Shown here piece by piece: positions 50,377 to 61,804 of a DNA stretch of 64,000 nucleotides. The notes below the pieces were generated by a model that was given only the letters and a program-made list of their open reading frames with translations, searched no databases and was not told the DNA's origin. Positions within the stretch are counted from its first letter, which is position 1. Each line of letters begins with the position of its first letter. The translations under genes were made by a program, and so were the position numbers. The stretch is taken from positions 4,132,820-4,196,819 of the forward strand of contig NZ_JAIHOO010000001.1 in assembly GCF_019733395.1 (NCBI RefSeq), given 5' to 3'. The stretch comes from Lysobacter sp. BMK333-48F3 (GTDB lineage: Bacteria > Pseudomonadota > Gammaproteobacteria > Xanthomonadales > Xanthomonadaceae).

Positions 50377-52926
50377 ATGAACGCCGCTGATGGAATCGTA
50401 ATCGGGGAAGCACCGGGCAGCCGGAAACCGGCGCGGCGACAAGCACTATCCAGCCTAGCATCGGCCGCATCGGTGTTCTGGGACGGAGGCTGTGGGTCTG
50501 CGACGCTTCGGCCGTCGATCGACCCAGGACATGGCCGACGCCTGTCGCGCAGGCACCGGATCGTCGCGTTGCTGAGCTGCTTGCTGTGGTTCTTCGCGGC
50601 GGCGGCGGGCGCTCGTTCCGGGCTGGAGCACCGGCTCGGCGTGGCGAAGTTCACCACCGAGGAAGGGCTGCCCCAGGCCGGCATCAACGCGATCATCCAG
50701 GCGAGGGACGGCTATCTTTGGGTCGGCACCTTCGGCGGTCTGGCTCGTTTCGACGGAACGGCGTTCGAGCTCTACACCCGTGCGCGGGCCGATGGACGCA
50801 AGGACGCGGCGCCCGCCAGCGACCGGATACTGGCCTTGCTCGAAGACGACCGCGGACGGCTCTGGGTCGGCACTGCGGATGCCGGGCTCAGCGTTCGCGA
50901 GCGCGAACGCTTCCGCCACCTGGCCCTGTGCGGCGGCGGCTGCAGGATCAACGCGATCGCCCAGGGGCCGGACGGCCGGGTCTGGGTCGCCAGCAGCGAC
51001 GGCATCGCCGTGTTCGATCGGGCCGCAGGCCAGCCCCGGTGGATCGCCAGATCGCGCAGCACCGGCGAGTTCATGCGCCTGGCCATCGACGACGCCGGCC
51101 GGGTCCATGCCGGTGGGACCAACGGACTTTACCTGGTCCGCGCCGACGGGCTGGTGCCGATCGCGCTGCCCGGGCGCGAGGCCCGCGTGCAACTGCTGGA
51201 GCGCGATGGCAGCGGCCTGTTGGTCGGAAGCGAGCAACGACTGTACCGATTCGACCCGGTCCGCCGCGCCTGGCGCACATTGGCGCCTGAGGCCGCGATG
51301 TACGCCGCCCGCGACGCCGACGGCCGCTGGTGGTTGTCGCTCGCATCCAGGCAGGTGGTGCGCGAAACCGAGGACGGCGCCTGGCGGATCGTGCCCGAAC
51401 TCAGCGGGCTGGGCATCGCCCACCTGTTCCGCGACGCCGATGGCAACCTGTGGGCGGGCAGCCGCAACAGCGGACTGTTGCGCATGCGTCCGCCGCTGTT
51501 CGGGTTGCTCGCAGAACCCGCGCTGGGCACGGACATGGCGGGGCGCGCCGTCGTCGCCGACGGCGGCGACGGCCTGTGGCTGGGTTCGGCCTGCGGCGGC
51601 CTGTTCCATTGGAGCCCTCGCCGCGGCGCCCGTCCGATTCCGGTCGAGGCGACCTTGGGCAGCGCATGCATCGCCAGCCTGCTGCTCGACAGCCGCGGCG
51701 CGCTCTGGATCGGTACCGCCGGCGGCGCGCTGGGCCGGCTCGAGAACGGCCGCCTGGAGTTGGCCGGGTTCTGGCCGAACAACGAGTCGGTATCGATCTG
51801 GGAACGAGGGCCGCAGGATTTCATCGTGGCCGTCGGCAGGACCACATACGCGTCTACTTACCCGTACCCGAACGCTTCCGCGCCGCAGACCGAACGCTTT
51901 CGCCGCATCGCCGCCTTGCAGGGAACGCGCATCGCCGACGTGGCGCCAGCGGCGAAGGGCGGGATCTGGCTCGCCGGCAGCCAGGGCGTCGTACGCTTGA
52001 ACGGCGACCGGATCGTGGAGCGATGGACGCGGCCCCAGGGGTTTCCTTCGCGATCCGCACGAGCCTTGCACGAGGACGCGGCGGGCGCGCTGTGGGTCGG
52101 CACGTACGGCGACGGTCTGTATCGGATCGAACAGGGCAGGGTATTCCGCTACGGCGCCGGCAACGGCCTCTCGGACGAGACCGTCTCCTGCATCCTGGAA
52201 GACGCGCGCGGGCGATTGTGGTTGGGCGGAAACGCAGGCGTGGCCCTGGTTCCGGCGCCGCGCAAAAGCGCGCACCGCATCGAATCGATCCGGTTTTCGG
52301 CCAGCGACGGATTGATCCCGAGCGAGATCAACGGCGGCGACTCCGTTCCCTGCCTTCGCGACAGTCGCGGCGCCTTGTGGTTCGCCCTGGTGTCCGGCTT
52401 CGGCACGGTCGACCCGGCGAGGGTGCCGGGGGTCGAGTCCGCGCGCCTGAAATCGCATATCGAGCATGTCGCGATCGACGGAAAACCGCTGCGCCCGAGC
52501 GGCAGAACGCTGCTGCTGCCCTCGTATTCGAGCAATCTGGAAATCCGTTACACCGCGATCAACCTGGGCAAGCCGCGCGATACCGCGTTCCGGTTCCGCC
52601 TGACCGGCGCGGACCGCGGATGGGTGGACGCCGGGCCGAACCGTAGCGTCCTGTATCCGCGCATTCCCTGGGGCCGGTTCGATTTCCAGGTGCAGGCGCG
52701 CACCGGCGGAGGGGCATGGGCGAGCGAGCCCGACGCGGCATTGAGCATCGTTCATCCTCGCCCCTGGCATCAGCATCCCTGGGTGTGGGGGCTGATCGCA
52801 TTGTTGGGGCTGTTGGCGTTGACCATCGCCGGGCGCGGCGACGAAGCGCCCGCCGGCTTCAAACCGGCGGGCGTATCGCGCTCCCCGGGGGGCGCGGCGG
52901 CGCAAGCAGCGGCGGACGAGGCCTAG
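50377..52926 (+). CDS. Propeller-type sensor (Reg_prop + Y_Y_Y) lacking an output domain
   Basis: 849 residues if the ATG at 50377 is used; one at 50356 would overlap the divergent kinase gene, and neither has a good ribosome-binding site. After an N-terminal hydrophobic segment (about 60-75) come many propeller repeats ending in LWVGT-type motifs (for example YLWVGTFGGLARF, RLWVGTADAGL, ALWVGTYGDGLYRI). A Y_Y_Y domain follows (around LEIRYTAINLGKP) and one membrane helix (PWVWGLIALLGLLAL). Relatives normally continue into a kinase or LuxR-type output; here only a ~45-residue tail follows. It may signal through the neighbouring kinase, or be a truncated sensor. Confidence 0.85.
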   Translation: MNAADGIVIGEAPGSRKPARRQALSSLASAASVFWDGGCGSATLRPSIDPGHGRRLSRRHRIVALLSCLLWFFAAAAGARSGLEHRLGVAKFTTEEGLPQAGINAIIQARDGYLWVGTFGGLARFDGTAFELYTRARADGRKDAAPASDRILALLEDDRGRLWVGTADAGLSVRERERFRHLALCGGGCRINAIAQGPDGRVWVASSDGIAVFDRAAGQPRWIARSRSTGEFMRLAIDDAGRVHAGGTNGLYLVRADGLVPIALPGREARVQLLERDGSGLLVGSEQRLYRFDPVRRAWRTLAPEAAMYAARDADGRWWLSLASRQVVRETEDGAWRIVPELSGLGIAHLFRDADGNLWAGSRNSGLLRMRPPLFGLLAEPALGTDMAGRAVVADGGDGLWLGSACGGLFHWSPRRGARPIPVEATLGSACIASLLLDSRGALWIGTAGGALGRLENGRLELAGFWPNNESVSIWERGPQDFIVAVGRTTYASTYPYPNASAPQTERFRRIAALQGTRIADVAPAAKGGIWLAGSQGVVRLNGDRIVERWTRPQGFPSRSARALHEDAAGALWVGTYGDGLYRIEQGRVFRYGAGNGLSDETVSCILEDARGRLWLGGNAGVALVPAPRKSAHRIESIRFSASDGLIPSEINGGDSVPCLRDSRGALWFALVSGFGTVDPARVPGVESARLKSHIEHVAIDGKPLRPSGRTLLLPSYSSNLEIRYTAINLGKPRDTAFRFRLTGADRGWVDAGPNRSVLYPRIPWGRFDFQVQARTGGGAWASEPDAALSIVHPRPWHQHPWVWGLIALLGLLALTIAGRGDEAPAGFKPAGVSRSPGGAAAQAAADEA

Positions 52927-52949
52927 GAATCGTGCTTGGGCGAGCCCCA

Positions 52950-52970
52950 TGCATCGTCGCCACCGATGCA
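52950..52970. terminator. Hairpin between convergent propeller and peptide genes
   Basis: TGCATCG and CGATGCA form a perfect seven-base stem with a seven-base loop, 24 bases after the propeller gene stop. A likely terminator for the + strand gene. Confidence 0.45.
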
Positions 52971-52978
52971 CGAGGCTA

Positions 52979-53007
52979 GCGCCCGAACCGACCTCAGGGT
53001 TGGGCGC
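52979..53007. terminator. Second hairpin at the convergent junction
   Basis: GCGCCC and GGGCGC, extended by AACC/GGTT with a one-base bulge, form a hairpin 25 bases beyond the stop of the Cys-rich peptide gene on the minus strand. It probably ends the peptide operon. Confidence 0.45.
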
Positions 53008-53031
53008 AGCCGGCGAACCGGTCAGGACGGG

Positions 53032-53256
53032 TCAGCAGCTGTTGCTGGCCGACATGCCGTTCATTTCGCAGAACCAACTGTGAGGCAACGCGCAAACGAT
53101 GGTCCCGCAATCGACGCAGCTCAGATTGCCGCAGCCGTCCTCACAGCACCAATAGCCGTTCGAACAGCCATCGCCGGACATTCCGATTCCACCGGCAACA
53201 AGGGCCTTTCCGGCGGCGCCGGAACGAACCGGAGGGGTCTGCAGAGGCATATGCAT
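53032..53256 (-). CDS. Nine-Cys peptide, candidate precursor of a modified or disulfide-rich peptide
   Basis: 74 residues; the ATG at 53256 has AGGAG eight bases upstream. The N-terminal 30 residues have no Cys and contain GKALVAGGIGMSGDG, which resembles a leader ending in a double-Gly type site. The remaining ~44 residues carry nine Cys (C-x5-CC-x3-C-x4-C-x2-C-x4-C-x7-C-x10-C) with Gly, Ser and aromatic residues. It is the last gene of an operon headed by a PatA/PatG-type protease, with a 36-base gap from the previous gene. I know no family for it. A ribosomally made, protease-matured peptide is the best guess; a small metal-binding or disulfide protein is the alternative. Confidence 0.75.
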   Translation of the reverse strand: MHMPLQTPPVRSGAAGKALVAGGIGMSGDGCSNGYWCCEDGCGNLSCVDCGTIVCALPHSWFCEMNGMSASNSC

Positions 53257-53292
53257 AGCGATTTCTCCTGTACGCGATCAGATGAGTTTCGA

Positions 53293-53601
53293 CTACTGCC
53301 TGGCCTGGTGCGTGGGGTAGAGTCCGGACAGCACATACTTGTCGGCCGGGCCGTTTTTCCCGGCCCTGCGCTTGATCGTCCTGAAGCTGCCGCCTTCGCA
53401 CTTCTCGACGCAACCGTCGTAGGTCTCCATGCATTTGTTGGTGCAGCTTTCGTCGTCGTCGCCGCAACCGCCGATGCAAGATCTCAGTTGGCCCAGGCAG
53501 GCCGCGATGCAAGCCTGGTCGCAGCTGCTGGGACGGATCGCGTCGCGGACGAAGGAAGGAGCCGGCCTGTGGGCCGGGGCGGTCAGAGGGGGGCGATTCA
53601 T
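53293..53601 (-). CDS. Small protein with a regular CX3C helical Cys pattern
   Basis: 102 residues; the ATG at 53601 overlaps the previous stop (ATGA) and has GAGGA seven bases upstream. The middle (about residues 27-68) has nine Cys in the regular order C-x3-C-x3-C-x6-C-x3-C-x6-C-x3-C-x6-C-x3-C. Repeated CX3C spaced by six residues places Cys on the same face of helices, as in helical-hairpin disulfide or metal-binding proteins. No signal peptide is evident. The C-terminal 30 residues are basic and Cys-free (FRTIKRRAGKNGP). Function unknown; its place in the PatG-like operon suggests a substrate or helper. Confidence 0.78.
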   Translation of the reverse strand: MNRPPLTAPAHRPAPSFVRDAIRPSSCDQACIAACLGQLRSCIGGCGDDDESCTNKCMETYDGCVEKCEGGSFRTIKRRAGKNGPADKYVLSGLYPTHQARQ

Positions 53602-53801
53602 GATTGTCCTCGCTGGTCGGGGTTGGACTTCTTGGTGAGCGCGGGAATCGGAACCCAGTCGTTCAAGATCCGTTCCCGGGCCTTGCAGCCGGCGCACGCG
53701 GGCACGCCGGCTTTATTGAATGCGCGACGAAGCAGGGTGCCCAGGCCGGGGCCCGAACTGTCCGCATCCGTCGCGGGAGGAAGTCGCTTGGGCAGGTGCA
53801 T
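53598..53801 (-). CDS. Small protein with a CxxC motif, PatG operon
   Basis: 67 residues starting three bases after the stop of the PatA/PatG-like gene and overlapping the next gene by four bases. A central segment, GTLLRRAFNKAGVPACAGCKARERILNDWVPI, carries one CxxC within an amphipathic helix; I recall this short 'CxxC plus RxxxLN' block from small proteins of unknown role next to peptide genes. There is no signal peptide. It could be a leader-like carrier peptide, a redox or metal-binding helper, or a partner of the protease. Confidence 0.78.
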   Translation of the reverse strand: MHLPKRLPPATDADSSGPGLGTLLRRAFNKAGVPACAGCKARERILNDWVPIPALTKKSNPDQRGQS

Positions 53802-53804
53802 GGA

Positions 53805-55682
53805 CTAGACCTCGTTCCAGAACCGCGGCTGGCCGACGCCGATCGGCAGAACATCGCTCACATCGACGGTGAAGCGGCACGCCCGCCTGGCGCGCATCAG
53901 GTTTTCCGGGTCGAAGAAGCGCATCTTCACGTCGTACAGCTCGTCGTCGGACTTGGCGAGCGGGCTCTTCTCGACCGAGATGGCTTCGAGCACCCGGCCT
54001 TCACGAAGCGATTGCTTGAACACGCTTGCGGCCTGGAAGACATTGGTCGCCGAGTAGTTCAAGGCCCGATCCTCCGGGCTCAAGCCGTTGTTGCGGAAAT
54101 CGAAGTAGATGCGGCTCAGGAAGTCTTCGACACCGTCCTTGAGCGCCTGGTCGTCGTCGCTGTCGGCGAGAGCCTCGAGCAGCGCCTTGGTCGACCAGCT
54201 GTACATGCCGCGGACGTCAGGCGCCAAAACCGGCACCGTCTCGCCGGACTGCAGCGCGATCGTCCGTCCGGACGAATAGCCGCAAATGGATATGCGTTCG
54301 ATGTCCGGATCGCCGAGGAAATCGAGCAGCTTCTGGTAGGTGACGTGGGCGAACGGGCCGACCGGGGTGATGGCGTAAAGGACGGTGCCGTCCAGCTTCA
54401 ACAGCCACACCACGGACGGCGCCTCGTGCAGGTTCGCCTTCAGATACGTACCGATGTCCCTGCCGGCGGCCGACTGGCTGAAGCTGTTTCGGGACGATTC
54501 GCTGTAGTACTCGACCGCCAGCTCGCCCAGGGCGTAGACCAGTTGAGGCTGCTTGCAGGTGGTGCATCCCGACGAAGGCTTCACCAACTCCTCCTGGCCG
54601 TACGCGCGGTCGGCGGCGTACGCGACAACGTCCTCGTGCCCGGCATCACGCCCCGGATCGTACGAGTTGGCGACGGAGAGGGCATGCGGATTCGCTTCCG
54701 GCATGGACTCGTCTTGTTCTTTCTGCGGGGTCGCGTGGGTCGAGGTAGGGTCCGACATGCCGTGCTCCTTCTGGTTTTCTGAGTTGACTAGGAAAGCGTG
54801 AGCGGCCGCCACATCCATGATTCCCGATAGCAACTGGCGGCAGTGTTTGCTGTCCGGATCTCGTTCGCAGCCCCGGGCCGATTCGAGCATCGCTTGGCGC
54901 ACCCGGCGCGGGTCGATGCGGCCGTAGCGCGCAAGCTGCACGCTCATCAGCAGCGCGGCGGCGCCGGCGACGATGGGCGTGGCGAAACTGGTGCCGCTTC
55001 TGCGGCGAACGCCTCCGCCGGGCCTGGCTCCCAGGATGTGCTCGCCGGGCGCCAGGATTCCGCGGCCGCGGTATGCGTCGCTCCAGTTGCTGTTGCGCAT
55101 CGGCGCTCCGGACGCGCCCAATGCGCCCACCGCCAGGACCTCGGGCAGCGCTGCCGGAATATGCGCGCAATCGCATCCGTCGTTGCCGGCGGCGGCTATC
55201 ACCAGCACGTTGTTTCTGACGCAACGCTCCAGGGCGCGTTTCAACAGTCCGTCGGCCGGTTGTCCCGCCGACTTGATCAGCTGGCCTGCGCTGATCGTGA
55301 CGATATCGGCACCGTTGCCGACGGCCAGGTCGATCGCATGCGCCAGGTACGATTGCGTGCAGAAGCTGCGTCCTGCGCGCGGCCGGTCATCGAAGATCTT
55401 GATCAGCAAGCCGGTGCAGTTCGGCGCCACCCCCGACACGGCACCGCGGCCGAAGATCACGCTGGCGATATGGGTTCCGTGCTGGTGCGCCGGCGAATCC
55501 GATGGCGCCTGGTTTTCGCCGAGCGCGGTCAGCGCCGCTCCCTGGAAGCAGGGGTGCAATACATCCACGGCCCCGTCCAGCACGGCGATGCGGACTTCGC
55601 GGCTGCCGAGCGTTTCCCGCTGCAGTGCGGCGATGTCCTTCCAGGTTTTTTCGCCGAGATCTTCGTGCCGCGGGATATTCAT
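53805..55682 (-). CDS. PatA/PatG-type subtilisin-like peptide maturation protease
   Basis: About 625 residues with the ATG at 55682; ATGs at 55727 and 55841 would lengthen it and no start has a good ribosome-binding site. Residues 25-275 form a subtilase domain with a complete triad, Asp36 (AVLDGAV), His68 (HQHGTH) and Ser232 (SGTSFATP), and oxyanion Asn167 (AAGNDG). A low-complexity Glu/Ser/His linker follows. The C-terminal ~270 residues match the PatG C-terminal domain of cyanobactin proteases (VYALGELAVEY, YAITPVGPFA, YSATNVFQAA, FTVDVSDVLPIG). Cyanobactin PatA removes leaders and PatG macrocyclises. No heterocyclase, transporter or canonical PatE precursor is nearby, so the substrate is probably one of the co-transcribed Cys-containing peptides. 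Confidence 0.9.
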   Translation of the reverse strand: MNIPRHEDLGEKTWKDIAALQRETLGSREVRIAVLDGAVDVLHPCFQGAALTALGENQAPSDSPAHQHGTHIASVIFGRGAVSGVAPNCTGLLIKIFDDRPRAGRSFCTQSYLAHAIDLAVGNGADIVTISAGQLIKSAGQPADGLLKRALERCVRNNVLVIAAAGNDGCDCAHIPAALPEVLAVGALGASGAPMRNSNWSDAYRGRGILAPGEHILGARPGGGVRRRSGTSFATPIVAGAAALLMSVQLARYGRIDPRRVRQAMLESARGCERDPDSKHCRQLLSGIMDVAAAHAFLVNSENQKEHGMSDPTSTHATPQKEQDESMPEANPHALSVANSYDPGRDAGHEDVVAYAADRAYGQEELVKPSSGCTTCKQPQLVYALGELAVEYYSESSRNSFSQSAAGRDIGTYLKANLHEAPSVVWLLKLDGTVLYAITPVGPFAHVTYQKLLDFLGDPDIERISICGYSSGRTIALQSGETVPVLAPDVRGMYSWSTKALLEALADSDDDQALKDGVEDFLSRIYFDFRNNGLSPEDRALNYSATNVFQAASVFKQSLREGRVLEAISVEKSPLAKSDDELYDVKMRFFDPENLMRARRACRFTVDVSDVLPIGVGQPRFWNEV

Positions 55683-56149
55683 TCGTTGGTCCGTCGTTCG
55701 AGCCGCACCCGGCCCGGCCGTGGACATGCCGGGCTTTGCCGCGACAGCGCGATATCGCGCTTTTCCCAGGTCGGCGATCGGATCGCGGCGCCGGCTGCGG
55801 TAGGCGCAACGATGGGCTCGGCGCGACGGCGATGCACGCACCGAAATTTTCGGTTTTTCACTGCGAATGTCGGCAGGCGCGCGAATCTGCGACGGTGTTC
55901 GGAACCGGACGTGATCCAGTCCGAACCGGCCAGTCTGCGCAGCCGTGGCAGCGGGGAAACTTGCGAACAGCGACTCCGTTCGGTTTCGAGTCTCAGCCGG
56001 TGGGCCCGGACCGCCGCCTCGGTCCCGGCGTTAGCTGTTGGCCGTTGCTGCAGACCGTATGCGGCGGTTTCCCCTGGCGAGGGACGGCGCTGTCATCGCC
56101 GCCGCCCGGCGTGCGTTGCCAGTTGCAGCCGACGCCGCAAGGAACCGCC
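55683..56149. other. Divergent intergenic region upstream of the PatG-like gene
   Basis: 467 bases between the PatG-like gene and the divergent esterase gene. Frame-extended starts of the protease reach into it. I see no further gene. A strong sigma-70 promoter is not obvious for either side. The last 15 bases hold AAGGA, the ribosome-binding site of the esterase gene. Confidence 0.45.
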
Positions 56150-57022
56150 ATGCGCCACCTGTCCGCCCCCCGCTTGCTTGCCGCCCTGTCGGGTCGGCTT
56201 TGCCTGCTTGCGGCACTCGCTGTCCCTGGATTCGCATCGGCGGCCGAGGCCTCGGTCGCGCAACGCGACCTGGCCTACGGCCCCGACCCGGCGCAGCGCT
56301 TGGACGTTTACAGCCCGCATCGGGCAAGCGGCGCGCCTATCGTGCTGATGGTCCATGGCGGCGGCTGGCGCATCGGCGACAAGGCGGCACGCGGCGTGGT
56401 TCAGGCCAAGGCCGCGCACTGGAACGCGCAGGACCGGATCGTGGTCTCGATCAACTACCGGCTACTGCCGCAGGCCGACCCGCTGCAGCAGGCCGCGGAC
56501 GTGGCGCGCGCCCTGGCCTATGTGCAACGCGAGGCGCCGCGCTGGGGCGGCGACGCGACACGCCTGGTCTTGATGGGGCATTCGGCCGGCGCGCACCTGG
56601 TGGCGCTGCTGGCGGCCGCACCGGAGCTGGCGCGCGCGCAGGGGGCGCGGCCTTGGAGCGGGACGGTCGCGCTGGACAGCGCCGCCTACGACGTCGAGGC
56701 CTTGATGCGCCGGCCGCACCTGCGCCTGTACGACCAGGCGTTCGGCGCGGATTCGCGCTATTGGCGCGAGGCTTCGCCGACCCGGCGCCTGCGCGGCGCG
56801 CCGGCACCGATGCTGTTGGTCTGTTCCAGCCGACGCCGGCAGTCCTGCCCGCAGGCGCGCGACTACGCCCGCCGCGCCGTCGACCTGGGCGGGCGCGCGC
56901 AGGTGCTGCCGCTCGGGTTGGACCATGCGGCCATCAACGCCGAGCTCGGCGCCGAAGGCGACTACACCGCCCGGGTGGATGCGTTCCTGGCCTCGCTATG
57001 GGCGCCTGCGCGCCGCGATTGA
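56150..57022 (+). CDS. Exported alpha/beta hydrolase (esterase, BD-FAE/HSL-like)
   Basis: 290 residues starting at the ATG at 56150, with AAGGA six bases upstream. A signal peptide (about 1-31, ending ASAAEA) is followed by an esterase domain with the oxyanion motif HGGGW, nucleophile Ser145 in GHSAG, and a likely His in GLDHAAIN. The N-terminal YGPDPAQRLDVYSP block is typical of the BD-FAE/carboxylesterase group that act on feruloyl or short acyl esters. The protein is expected in the periplasm or outside the cell. No operon link to its neighbours is clear. Confidence 0.88.
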   Translation: MRHLSAPRLLAALSGRLCLLAALAVPGFASAAEASVAQRDLAYGPDPAQRLDVYSPHRASGAPIVLMVHGGGWRIGDKAARGVVQAKAAHWNAQDRIVVSINYRLLPQADPLQQAADVARALAYVQREAPRWGGDATRLVLMGHSAGAHLVALLAAAPELARAQGARPWSGTVALDSAAYDVEALMRRPHLRLYDQAFGADSRYWREASPTRRLRGAPAPMLLVCSSRRRQSCPQARDYARRAVDLGGRAQVLPLGLDHAAINAELGAEGDYTARVDAFLASLWAPARRD

Positions 57023-58256: not shown

Positions 58257-61200
58257 TCAGCGACGACCGTCCGGTGTGGCGCCATTGGTCACGCGCAGGC
58301 CGATCGAGCGCCGCAGATAGCGCCGCAACTGCGGTTCGTCGAAGGCCGGCTCGGCGATGCCGCTGCCGCGCAGGAATTCGTCGACGTTGCCGCAGTCCCA
58401 ACGATAGCCGTCCTGATACAACTCGGCCGTCGACTGGCCGTCGCGCACGACATCCTTGAACAGGCTCAGCAGCGGGTACAGTGGCGCTGTGTGGTCGTTC
58501 TCCCACAGCGCGCACCAGGCGCGATAGGGCAGCCGCGGCAGACGCAGTCCCGACGCTGCCTCCAGCTTGGCGAAGAATTCGTGCAGGGTGAGATTGTTCC
58601 GGTCGCGGTTGACCAGGTTGAATTTCTTGCCGATGGCCGCCGGATTGCGCGAAATATGGGCGATGGCCCGGGTCATGTAGTCGACGCTGGTCAGCCCCTC
58701 GCGGAAATTGCGTAGCTCCGGAACGCCGCCGTACGCGATGCAGGTGCGGACCAGCCGGGACCACCATTGGTAATCGGCGCAACGGCCGGAACGGCCGTGG
58801 AAGGTCGCGTAGCCCAGGCGGAAGGTCATCAGCGGCAGGCCGCGGCTCGCCGCCATATCGGCGATCTTTTCCATCACCCATTTGCTGCGGACGTAGCCGA
58901 TGTCGGCGCTCACCGCGGTCAGGTTCTGGTCGATGTCGTCGTCCTCGCGCATCATCTGCTTGCCGGTGTACCGGTGCCCCCAGCTGTAGACCGAAATCGT
59001 CGACATCAGGGCCAGCGGCTTGAGCCGGCCGGCGGCGCAGAAGGCCAGGACCTCGCGCAGCCCCAGCACGTTGTCGCGGCGCAGATGCGAGTAGGGCTGG
59101 ATGAAGTTGACCGCACTGGCGCAGTGGTAGACCAGGTCGGCCGATCCGGCCAGATAGTCGTGCTCGCCGGCGGCCAGTCCCAGCCGCGGCTCGGCCAGGT
59201 CCGCCGGGTAGGCGCGCACCCGCAACAGGCCGCGCTCGCCGGGGTCCAGGGCGTACTTGGCCAAAGTCGCCTTCAGTCGCTCGCCGGCGGCGTTCTGGTC
59301 GCTGGCCCGGATCGGACAGTGGATCGTCGCGCTCGTGGTCGCGAGCAGATCGCACAGCAAGTGGGCGCCGACGAACCCGGTGGCGCCGGTCAGCACGACA
59401 TGCCGGGGCGCGGCGATCTGGCTCGTGTCGTATCCGGTGTCGAAGCGGGTGCCGTCGATCAGATGCAGGTCGGATTGCAGCGCCCGGATCGGTTCGGCGT
59501 CGATCGTGGGCGCGCTGCGGCCCGAGCGCTGTTCCAGCGCCGTGGCCAGGGCGCGAACGCTGGGAAATTCGTAGATGTCCCGGACATAGGCCTTGACCCC
59601 CAGCGCCTGGCCGATCTCGCGGGTCAGCTGGGCGGCGAGCAGCGATTGGCCGCCGATCGCGAAGTAGCTGTCGTCCCGGTCGAAATCGGCATGCCCGAGC
59701 GCGCGGGCGAAGATCGCCGCGATCTGCGCTTCGGTGTCGGTGCCGGTCTCGGCCGCCTGGGCAAGCGCTGCTGCGGCTTGCCGGCGTTGCGCGTAGCGCC
59801 GGAGCAGCTCGGTTTTGTCGGTCTTGCCGTTGGGCGTAAGCGGGAACGCATCCACTGTCATGAAGGCGGCGGGAATCATGTAGTCCGGCAACGTCGCGGC
59901 GAGCTGGGCGCGCAGCCCGGAAGGCGCGGCGTTCGCTTCCGTCGCGGCCGTCGCCTCGGCCACCACGAAGGCGACGATCTGCTTGCGACCGGGGTCGTCC
60001 GGCGCGGCGACCGCGACCGCGGCCTTGCGCACGCCGGGCAGCAACTGCAACTGCGCCTCGATTTCGCCCAGTTCGACCCGATTGCCGCGGATCTTGATCT
60101 GCTCGTCGCCTCGGCCGAGAAACTGGATCTCGCCGTCCGGCAACAGTCGCGCCAGGTCGCCGGTGCGGTACAGGCGCTGGCCGCCGACGTTCACGAAGCG
60201 CTCGCGAGTGAGCGCTTCGTTGTCGAGATAGCCGCGCGCCAGCCCCGGGCCGCCCAGGCAGAGCTCGCCTGTCTCGCCCGGAGGAACCGGGTCGAGGGAC
60301 GGATCGAGGATGTGCGCCGTCGCGCCCGCGATCGGTTTGCCGATCGAGTAGGGGGCGCCCGCGCTGGCGCTGGGCACCCGCCTGGAGGTGGCGAAAATGG
60401 TCGCCTCGGTGGGGCCGTAGTAGTCCACCAGGGTGTAGCCGATTCCGTCCAGGTCGACGGGGGTCAATTTTTCGCCGGCGGTGAACAGATAGCGCAAGCG
60501 CGTCCTCACGCCGCGGGTCGCCGCTACGACCTCCGGCACCATCACGGTCGGCACGAAGGCGTGGCTGATCGCATGGTCCGCATAGAACAGCGCCAGCACA
60601 GCAGGGTCCACACGCACGGCTTGCTCCAGCAGGTGCAGCGTCGCCCCGGCGCACAGGGCCGACCACACTTCCCACTGGGCGACGTCGAAACCGATCTTGG
60701 CCATCGAAGTCAGGCGACTGTCGCCGTTCACCTCGAACTCGCGGTTGTGCCAGTCGACCAGATTGCCGAGCGCCGCATGCTCAATGACGACGCCTTTGGG
60801 CAGACCGGTGGTGCCTGAGGTGAAGATCGCGTACGCGACATCGCCCGCGCCGGCCGCAACGGGCGGGGCCAACCGACCGGCCGGAGCGGCCGCGAGTTCG
60901 TCGATATCGAGCGCCTCGAATGCGTCGCGAGTCCAGGCCCCACGGGAACACAGCGCCAGCGCGGATCGGGTCTGGGCGACGATGTAGCGTTTTCTCGCGT
61001 CGGGATAGCCGTCGTCGATCGGCACATAGGCCGCGCCGGATTTGGCGATGCCGAGCAGGCCGACGACCAGGCTCGCAGAGCGGTCGCAGATCAAAGGCAC
61101 CAGCGATCCGGGCCCGATGCCGCGTTGGGCGAGGCGCGCCGCGACGAGGTCGCTGTCGCGATCGAGCTGCCGGTAGCTGATCGCGCGGCCGCGGTCGACC

Positions 61201-61271
61201 GCGGCGGTCGATTCGGGCTGTTCGATCGCGCGATTCCGAAACCGATCGACTACGCTGCGTATGGTCGGCAT
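58257..61271 (-). CDS. Stand-alone NRPS-like A-T-reductase (carboxylic acid reductase-like)
   Basis: 1004 residues from the ATG at 61271. An adenylation domain (about 1-490; TSGTTGLPKG, YYGPTEATIF, LYRTGDLARL) is followed by a carrier domain (about 505-575; FAIGGQSLLAAQL) and a thioester reductase domain (about 620-1000; VVLTGATGFVG and the YVRSK tyrosine-lysine pair). The product should be an aldehyde released by NAD(P)H. The pocket reads roughly DVWAFAYIF, which I cannot assign. There is no condensation domain. Comparable A-T-R enzymes reduce amino or aryl acids, as in aminoadipate reductase. The neighbours give no clear pathway. Confidence 0.92.
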   Translation of the reverse strand: MPTIRSVVDRFRNRAIEQPESTAAVDRGRAISYRQLDRDSDLVAARLAQRGIGPGSLVPLICDRSASLVVGLLGIAKSGAAYVPIDDGYPDARKRYIVAQTRSALALCSRGAWTRDAFEALDIDELAAAPAGRLAPPVAAGAGDVAYAIFTSGTTGLPKGVVIEHAALGNLVDWHNREFEVNGDSRLTSMAKIGFDVAQWEVWSALCAGATLHLLEQAVRVDPAVLALFYADHAISHAFVPTVMVPEVVAATRGVRTRLRYLFTAGEKLTPVDLDGIGYTLVDYYGPTEATIFATSRRVPSASAGAPYSIGKPIAGATAHILDPSLDPVPPGETGELCLGGPGLARGYLDNEALTRERFVNVGGQRLYRTGDLARLLPDGEIQFLGRGDEQIKIRGNRVELGEIEAQLQLLPGVRKAAVAVAAPDDPGRKQIVAFVVAEATAATEANAAPSGLRAQLAATLPDYMIPAAFMTVDAFPLTPNGKTDKTELLRRYAQRRQAAAALAQAAETGTDTEAQIAAIFARALGHADFDRDDSYFAIGGQSLLAAQLTREIGQALGVKAYVRDIYEFPSVRALATALEQRSGRSAPTIDAEPIRALQSDLHLIDGTRFDTGYDTSQIAAPRHVVLTGATGFVGAHLLCDLLATTSATIHCPIRASDQNAAGERLKATLAKYALDPGERGLLRVRAYPADLAEPRLGLAAGEHDYLAGSADLVYHCASAVNFIQPYSHLRRDNVLGLREVLAFCAAGRLKPLALMSTISVYSWGHRYTGKQMMREDDDIDQNLTAVSADIGYVRSKWVMEKIADMAASRGLPLMTFRLGYATFHGRSGRCADYQWWSRLVRTCIAYGGVPELRNFREGLTSVDYMTRAIAHISRNPAAIGKKFNLVNRDRNNLTLHEFFAKLEAASGLRLPRLPYRAWCALWENDHTAPLYPLLSLFKDVVRDGQSTAELYQDGYRWDCGNVDEFLRGSGIAEPAFDEPQLRRYLRRSIGLRVTNGATPDGRR

Positions 61272-61804
61272 GCCTGTGTCTCCGATGGTCGAAGTCGCCG
61301 CTGTGCCCACCGCGCATGCGACGGGACGCGGTCGCGTCCTCGCGCCATGGCGATTGCGCAGGCATTGCGGATGGAAAGACGATGGCCGCGAGGCATGCGC
61401 GAAGAGGAAATCGCCGGTGGATTTCGCTGCAACGCGCGCATCGCCTCGTTCGACGTACTGAGTACCGGTCGACGGCGCGTTGGTCTGTGATCGGATCGCA
61501 GTTCCGCTCTGCTCACCGACGCTAACGGTCGGACCGTTGATCCAGATCAATCCGACGCGATGCCGAAGGCTCTGGATGCCCGCCTGCGCGGGCATGACGA
61601 CTGGAAGATTCGTGGCGAAGCCGAGCCACCGTCATTCCCGATGAACGTCATCCCGCGAAAGCGGGGATCCAGGGCTTCACCGAGACAAGACCGCGAAGTC
61701 TGTGGGCGCCCGCCTGTGCGCAGAGGCAGGTCGTGGCGTCGCCGCGGAAACCGCGGCGGGCCGTCGACCGACCCGCCGCGCGTGCGGCCGTCTTCGGGCG
61801 ATGC
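61272..61804. other. Intergenic region with REP-like hairpins
   Basis: 533 bases between the end of the GH76-like gene and the start of the reductase gene, both on the minus strand. No gene with a ribosome-binding site is seen. The main content is the paired REP-like element listed separately. Confidence 0.5.
61572..61676. repeat. Pair of inverted REP-like hairpin units
   Basis: Left unit: GGATGCCCGCCTGCGCGGGC plus ATGACG, with an eight-base stem ATGCCCGC/GCGGGCAT. Right unit in opposite orientation: GTCATCCCGC-GAAA-GCGGGGATCC. Such 'GGATCCCCGC..GGGGATGACG' units in head-to-head pairs are common intergenic repeats in gamma-proteobacteria and xanthomonads. They sit downstream of a gene end, as usual. 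Confidence 0.75.

Follow-up and report, generated by a model that had tools for sequence, protein, structure and literature searches.

A single PatA-type protease as the probable maturation enzyme of Cys-rich ribosomal peptides in a Lysobacter operon related to cyanobactin clusters

Cyanobactin pathways combine two proteases with PatE, PatB, and PatC, as set out in the available parts of PMC4663559 and PMC4603692. The cleavage site of PatA lies directly after G(L/V)E(A/P)S according to PMC10885120, which also lists NisP, ElxP, and AmyP as S8-family leader peptidases of lanthipeptides. The available sections of the structure paper on the domain of unknown function (DUF) of PatA and PatG give PatB and PatC no known role and leave that of the DUF open (PMC4259220). 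In Streptomyces scabies, SCAB_66631, a protein with the PatG DUF only, adjoins four short peptides (available part of PMC7369419). Here we describe an operon in a 64,000-nucleotide stretch of the Lysobacter sp. BMK333-48F3 genome (contig NZ_JAIHOO010000001.1; hereafter the window), in which one protease with PatG domains is followed by genes for three small proteins. The operon has the appearance of a minimal route for the release of ribosomal peptides, a reading that we draw from the recurrence of the protease/peptide pairing in distant bacteria. Coordinates are collected in Table 1.

Table 1. Features of the operon in the window, with one example of the split-protease type from another locus
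Feature	Position	Strand	Basis
S8 protease with C-terminal PatG_D and PatG_C (DUF), 625 aa	53805..55682	-	Pfam, TIGR03895, solved chains
Putative 67-aa accessory, RLPP...GLG...GVPACAGC..R..ILN.W	53598..53801	-	Homologues beside PatG_C genes
102-aa Cys-rich peptide, probable precursor, eroded leader	53293..53601	-	Position, A1 inspection
74-aa Cys-rich precursor peptide (predicted), divergent cyanobactin-like leader	53032..53256	-	Leader profile, matrix, alignment A1
Leader motif MPLQTPPVR, residues 3-11 of the 74-aa peptide	53224..53250	-	A1, leader profile
Predicted core, residues 28-74 of the 74-aa peptide, 9 Cys, after GIGMS	53035..53175	-	A1 column match
Split-type example	L056 5984-7397		S8, CxGC, PatG_D/C, peptides

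Pfam recognizes three domains in the protease, Peptidase_S8 (E = 1.1e-28), PatG_D (6.1e-7), and PatG_C (1.8e-30), and its NCBIfam TIGR03895 score of 526.4 bits exceeds the family cut-off of 421.05. The closest solved chains are 4h6v ("subtilisin-like protein," 8.5e-80 over residues 25-304) and 4h6w ("N-terminal cyanobactin protease," 7.8e-77), which we take to be PatA and an orthologue, and the second half of the protein (residues 382-623) matches 4uvq, presumably the PatG DUF, at 1.6e-51. Matches to 4h6x and 4aks, which we take to represent the PatG macrocyclase domain, are far weaker (3.5e-37 and 4.5e-37). Judged by these chains, the protease is closer to PatA than to the PatG macrocyclase (8.5e-80 vs 3.5e-37). 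Residues D36, H68, and S232, presumably the catalytic triad, are invariant in all 20 aligned rows, the window included, and the protein combines PatG_D and PatG_C with an intact Ser-His-Asp triad.

Proteases of this kind are sparsely distributed. The one described here, PatA-like, is the single TIGR03895 match over the cut-off in its own genome and in the 297 sampled genomes of its family. PatG_C occurs in 6 of 369 sampled genomes of the window's class and in 2 of 398 of its phylum (both counts include the window's own genome). Counting the centre genome each time, it occurs in 4 of 246 in the phylum of a Planctomycetales metagenome-assembled genome (MAG), 5 of 199 in the order of genome G971 (of which G1524 looks like a repeat, with the same coordinates), and 7 of 151 in the family of Rhizobium FY34. 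A tree of the DUF separates 24 rows in which protease and DUF are fused from 10 rows of a split type described below (L082, L095, and L097 among them), with support of 100/100. The window clusters with L055, L046, and L090 (98/94), two cyanobacterial plasmid loci and one genome of the window's class, which suggests transfer between cyanobacteria and that class.

The four genes lie on the minus strand, the protease followed by the 67-, 102-, and 74-residue proteins at spacings of 3, -4 (an overlap), and 36 bases. G+C content at third codon positions is coding-like throughout (0.72-0.83), and overall G+C is 0.60-0.65, below the 0.70 of the window. The small proteins contain two, nine, and nine Cys, respectively, and match no Pfam or NCBIfam model at E <= 1. 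Among the seven neighboring open reading frames (ORFs), the extent of our search for prenyltransferases and transporters, Pfam finds neither of these and no heterocyclase; two of the seven have no family at 1e-5. YcaO is absent from the whole genome, and with it the cyclodehydratase expected of thiazole/oxazole-modified microcins and other azol(in)e peptides. An earlier, sequence-only reading of this DNA had described a subtilase with a PatG C-terminal domain, the same tight spacing, Cys in all three small proteins, and no heterocyclase, prenyltransferase, or transporter; our measurements agree on every point, the last within the scope just given. Rfam had no match in window positions 52000-57000, a promoter scan found nothing, and a terminator scan found one candidate against a shuffled mean of 2.7, fewer than by chance. 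We found no match among viral contigs; 31 phage records match the protease, none over 80% of the query, and the 10 matches listed cover the S8 part only.

The 74-residue peptide starts MHMPLQTPPVRS, a divergent copy of a leader, MxLPxQxxPVxR...[VI]xPS, found in related loci: P4, Q6, P9, and V10 conform, and Arg stands at position 11 vs position 12 in 23 of 24 other leaders. The peptide continues to GGIGMS and then nine Cys. In our peptide alignment A1, GIGMS falls in the [VI]xPS column with Met replacing Pro, and cleavage would follow it. A hidden Markov model (HMM) of the 24 leaders from other loci, scored against every stop-to-stop frame of 25 residues or more in the window (877 in total), ranks this frame first (E = 0.0064; runner-up 0.25). 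By this profile, which excludes the window, the 74-residue peptide belongs to the group that pairs a lone PatA-like protease with such leaders and Cys-rich cores, and the 102- and 67-residue proteins do not. A 10-residue matrix ranks the three 2nd, 18th, and 39th of 350, respectively, with an internal match in GC-rich sequence at rank 1. When the A1 profile was run on 150 of the 318 candidates in the window's own genome, only the two longer operon peptides matched, both of them A1 rows. The statement in the sequence-only reading that none of the small proteins resembles PatE goes too far for the 74-residue peptide, whose leader resembles the cyanobactin leader pattern, if divergently.

We compared PatG_C loci from a Rhizobium, a Planctomycetales MAG, other genomes, and cyanobacterial and Streptomyces plasmids. 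Downstream (3') of fused proteases lie small ORFs whose MxLPxQxxPVxR start is followed, some 10 residues later, by a [VI]xPS-like site and then a variable core. By eye, and in part on the basis of Cys count, we selected 48 of these peptides from 21 loci, 14 of which carry at least two. Examples are L055 (MNLPIQTQPVMR...EVEPS, six Cys), Gloeocapsa L046 (MKLPVQAAPVQR...GIKPS), L059 (MRLPSQSPPVHR...GVEPS, eight Cys), and Streptomyces L050 (HMPQQAPPVDR...AVEPS, no Cys). Of 24 leaders cut at the presumed site, 15 have [VILM]xPS as their final residues, and S is last in 20. The 36 peptides from outside Streptomyces hold 4-10 Cys each; 10 of the 12 from Streptomyces hold none and have the same leader, so Cys-richness is not universal and we dropped it as a defining trait.

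Two further features of these loci deserve mention. Taken at full length, the first peptide ORF in L084 (6482-6871), L086 (4029-4418), L087 (6574-6978), and L059 (6875-7264) overlaps the end of the protease gene, and an internal ATG would place its start near the protease stop; these ORFs have a basic stretch before the leader motif and a common C-x2-C-x3-C core pattern. In five of six Streptomyces plasmid loci (L049, L050, L088, L089, and L097, not L095), the annotation places a BTAD-domain regulator upstream of the PatG-type gene.

Leader HMMs built with each clade left out in turn matched a same-strand frame adjoining the PatG_C gene (E <= 0.05) at 18 of the 24 fused-type loci, from Rhizobiaceae, the window's class, Cyanobacteria, Streptomyces, and a Planctomycete. 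This count includes L078 (0.050; an 82-residue motif protein with two Cys, not a Cys-rich precursor), L048 (its PatB), and L089 (3.8e-2), whose best match is on the opposite strand. Among the off-place matches, listed up to five per locus, that opposite-strand frame of L089 (3.2e-3) is itself a motif peptide; the others at E <= 0.05 are an L088 frame over the protease end and a protease frame in L081. None of 36 control subtilase loci without PatG_C matched at E <= 0.05 (best 0.13), a control weaker than the test because its loci carry 41-75 frames each vs 134-486 in the fetched test loci. In whole genomes, the A1 profile gave 26 matches (E <= 0.1) in 13 of 19. As read from coordinates, each of the 26 shares the strand of the PatG_C match and lies no more than about 2.5 kb downstream of it; scoring covered only 150 candidates per genome in 11 of the 19. 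This result speaks to specificity, as many of the matched peptides are A1 rows. Searched against Protein Data Bank (PDB) chains, PatE included, the leader-only profile A2 returned nothing; a zinc-finger match of one core (3.2e-4) was taken for chance, and other single peptides gave nothing useful.

The 102-residue peptide is a probable precursor. Independent leader profiles miss it, so the assignment draws on its position and on inspection of A1. A possible cleavage point follows IRPS at residue 25. Its Cys lie at residues 27, 31, 35, 42, 46, 53, 57, 64, and 68, forming four CX3C pairs (C31/35, C42/46, C53/57, and C64/68) with an exact 11-residue period.

The 67-residue protein, by contrast with the variable precursors, appears to be a conserved accessory of both protease types. 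Homologues adjoin PatG_C genes in L002, L056-L058, L075, L076, and the plasmid loci L094-L097, and ten positions are invariant in all 11 of them. The window's copy aligns with a Rhizobium protein at 34% over 47 residues and with a 66-residue protein of a split locus at 28% over 57. A CxGC..R...LN.W-type pattern occurs in seven distinct loci, each time adjoining a PatG_C gene, among 5854 ORFs from 94 overlapping sequence records that are mostly PatG_C or subtilase loci. The four loci L094-L097 came from a plasmid search with the L057 form; a PatG_D/C-type protein is next in each, and three have an annotated S8 peptidase upstream of the CxGC gene. Relatives exist outside PatG_C loci: Nonlabens phage proteins match the Rhizobium form over a stretch of 39 residues (2e-7). 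We considered the 67-residue protein as a third substrate and set that reading aside, because most of the sequence is conserved among homologues, which accompany PatG_D/C genes of both types. That its CxGC is used for metal is a guess.

In the split type (L056-L058, L075, L076, and the plasmid loci L094 and L096), the CxGC gene stands between an S8 gene of about 290-310 codons and a distinct PatG_D/C gene of about 300, which in L075 is a shorter frame. The Cys-containing peptides that follow the PatG_D/C gene start like MNMPGFTAETSLY, an MNxPGFTAEASL-type leader, and none of six split-protease loci matches the LPxQxxPVxR leader profile. L060 shows the PatG_C end only, plus FTAEASL-type peptides; a regular expression found no such peptides in L095 or L097, and L097 has no annotated S8 gene. 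A PatG_C protein is present in L082, where the CxGC pattern has no match. The string FTAEASL occurs in no paper of the open-licence PMC literature. One peptide in L096 (7636-7941) seems to carry both leader types in tandem (MNIPGFAAEAAL... then MRFPIQAGPITPS), one in L076 (3585-3980) combines an FTAEASL-like leader with 131 residues and 16 Cys, and a 579-residue ORF directly after the PatG_C protein in L082 (6831-8570) begins near MRVPGLYAGESLYASHNNY, an FTAEASL-like leader on a long protein.

The computations establish an intact protease, a leader and site that recur across loci, and an operon context. We put the probability that this is a PatA-only maturation operon for Cys-rich peptides, related to cyanobactins, at about 0.68. 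The S8-PatG_D-PatG_C protease would recognize its precursors by the MxLPxQxxPVxR-type leader, which is MHMPLQTPPVRS here, and make a single cut after the [VI]xPS-like site. Cleavage after GIGMS would leave a core of 47 residues, and cleavage after IRPS one of 77; each holds nine Cys, eight of which form CX3C pairs in the longer core. We infer both the cleavage and its position, and likewise that the cores are neither heterocyclized nor joined head to tail; the same qualification covers the fate of their Cys (disulfides or metal), their export, their biological role, and the product itself. The 67-residue CxGC protein would assist the protease or the DUF and not be a product. The DUF, kept in both types, is a candidate for leader docking, though docking may instead sit in the protease domain or elsewhere, as PatG-DUF did not bind PatE' by nuclear magnetic resonance in the available part of PMC4259220.

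That binding result is one of several points that weigh against this interpretation. Cleavage is deduced from sequence, and the profile peptides were chosen by eye, partly on Cys count. The strict PatA consensus G(L/V)E(A/P)S appears in just 1 of 24 relatives and in neither window peptide, whose sites (GIGMS and IRPS) are degenerate, and the 74-residue leader lacks the usual Arg12. The L055 leader aligns with positions 7-19 of the patellamide leader model TIGR03678 at 13.2 bits, far under the cut-off of 39.6; 2 of 23 A1 members match the model (best E 0.042), the 74-residue peptide does not at E <= 10, and the 67- and 102-residue proteins do not at E <= 1. The PatE chain 4v1u aligns to A1 from residue 7 at E = 1.4 only, and neither this alignment nor that of the L055 leader is significant alone. 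Six loci (L047, L090, L091, L002, L081, and L077) fail the leave-clade-out profile at E <= 0.05; a candidate peptide was picked by eye in five, and L091 has none. In most loci, small genes do accompany related proteases, and the refuting outcome named by the sequence-only reading, their absence, is not seen there. Its proposal of one protease acting on Cys-rich ribosomal peptides gains from the recurrence of leader-bearing ORFs in several phyla and loses the 67-residue protein as a substrate and Cys-richness as a general trait.

The alternative that survives best is a variant compatible with this interpretation, in which the protease matures cores that bind copper or zinc; we rate it as rather unlikely. 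The 11-residue period of the CX3C pairs is as on Cys-lined helices, and inspection of the protease shows no signal peptide, so that the cores would first meet the reducing cytosol. However, Cys spacing is irregular in other cores, Pfam finds no metal-binding family in the 23 A1 members, and 10 of the 12 Streptomyces peptides are Cys-free.

Less probable still, the peptides would regulate the protease or partner it like chaperones, bound through LPxQxxPVxR, as PatB may do, instead of serving as its substrates. In L048 (12565-12780), the PatB of a true cyanobactin cluster on a Gloeothece plasmid starts MRLPKLAPPVKR, the peptide-leader motif, and is the best match in that locus, a lead on the role of PatB. 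Low-Cys small proteins with the motif in L078, L079, and L083 also look PatB-like by eye only; the PatB model TIGR04220 matched none of those tested from L078 and L083. Against this stands the precursor pattern of the picked peptides, which have variable cores, a site just before the core, and often two or more copies per locus, whereas the L048 PatB shows by eye no [VI]xPS-like site.

Proteases can gate toxins, and cleavage might switch on a membrane-active toxin or defence peptide. Some Streptomyces cores (L049 and L088) are short and hydrophobic, but the window's cores are not obviously membrane-active and no immunity-like gene was recognized in the operon (PADLOC was not part of the search), which makes this idea improbable. 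A decayed cyanobactin cluster, stripped of its other genes and without a function of its own, would fit the patchy distribution, the low G+C content, and the grouping of the DUF with cyanobacterial plasmids, but four intact frames, the invariant triad, and the same reduced layout in distant genomes make it very improbable, and the data favour transfer over decay, which are two different claims.

A broader possibility, to which we give somewhat less than even odds, is a large unnamed ribosomal-peptide group built on a lone cyanobactin-type protease-DUF, spread over at least four phyla, of which cyanobactins are one branch. It would have two leader types, LPxQxxPVxR with the fused protease and FTAEASL with the split one, linked through a common DUF family and, at some loci, through the CxGC accessory. 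If so, cyanobactins would be a specialized branch that gained a heterocyclase and a macrocyclase; an old shared core acting in leader docking would include the DUF and PatB. A reduced system of protease, DUF, leader motif, and peptides would offer a setting of few components in which to test the roles of DUF and PatB. Should the peptides indeed be released, a broad source of Cys-rich ribosomal peptides may exist in Rhizobiaceae, Planctomycetes, cyanobacterial plasmids, and elsewhere, one that YcaO-based genome mining would miss. Elsewhere in the window, positions 58257-61595 encode an AMP-binding/carrier/NAD_binding_4 protein, the layout of a nonribosomal peptide synthetase-like reductase.

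We recognized no description of a protease-only system among the matches listed from the open-licence PMC literature; this novelty is provisional, as most subscription papers and all bioRxiv preprints fall outside that search. To our knowledge, NisP, ElxP, and AmyP carry no PatG domains. They resemble the present case in that a lone S8 protease removes the leader and differ in that the substrates are lanthipeptides (available part of PMC10885120). SCAB_66631 shares a PatG DUF protein adjoining short peptide genes and is perhaps a split-type member; the likeness is to the DUF only, and the available part of PMC7369419 proposes no system or leader. Compared with cyanobactin clusters, our locus has one protease, PatA-like, in place of separate A and G proteases, no macrocyclase-type protease over the TIGR03895 cut-off, no YcaO in the genome, and long Cys-rich cores; PatB and PatC have no counterpart among its three small proteins, none of which matches an NCBIfam model (TIGR04220 for PatB) at E <= 1 (these three were the extent of the PatB and PatC search in this genome). 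By eye, its peptides also lack the AYDG signal and RSI, which we take to be a cyanobactin precursor element. What the two share is an S8-DUF protease nearest PatA, a leader that in relatives stands in the register of the patellamide model, a [VI]xPS cleavage-like site, and the motif at the start of PatB.

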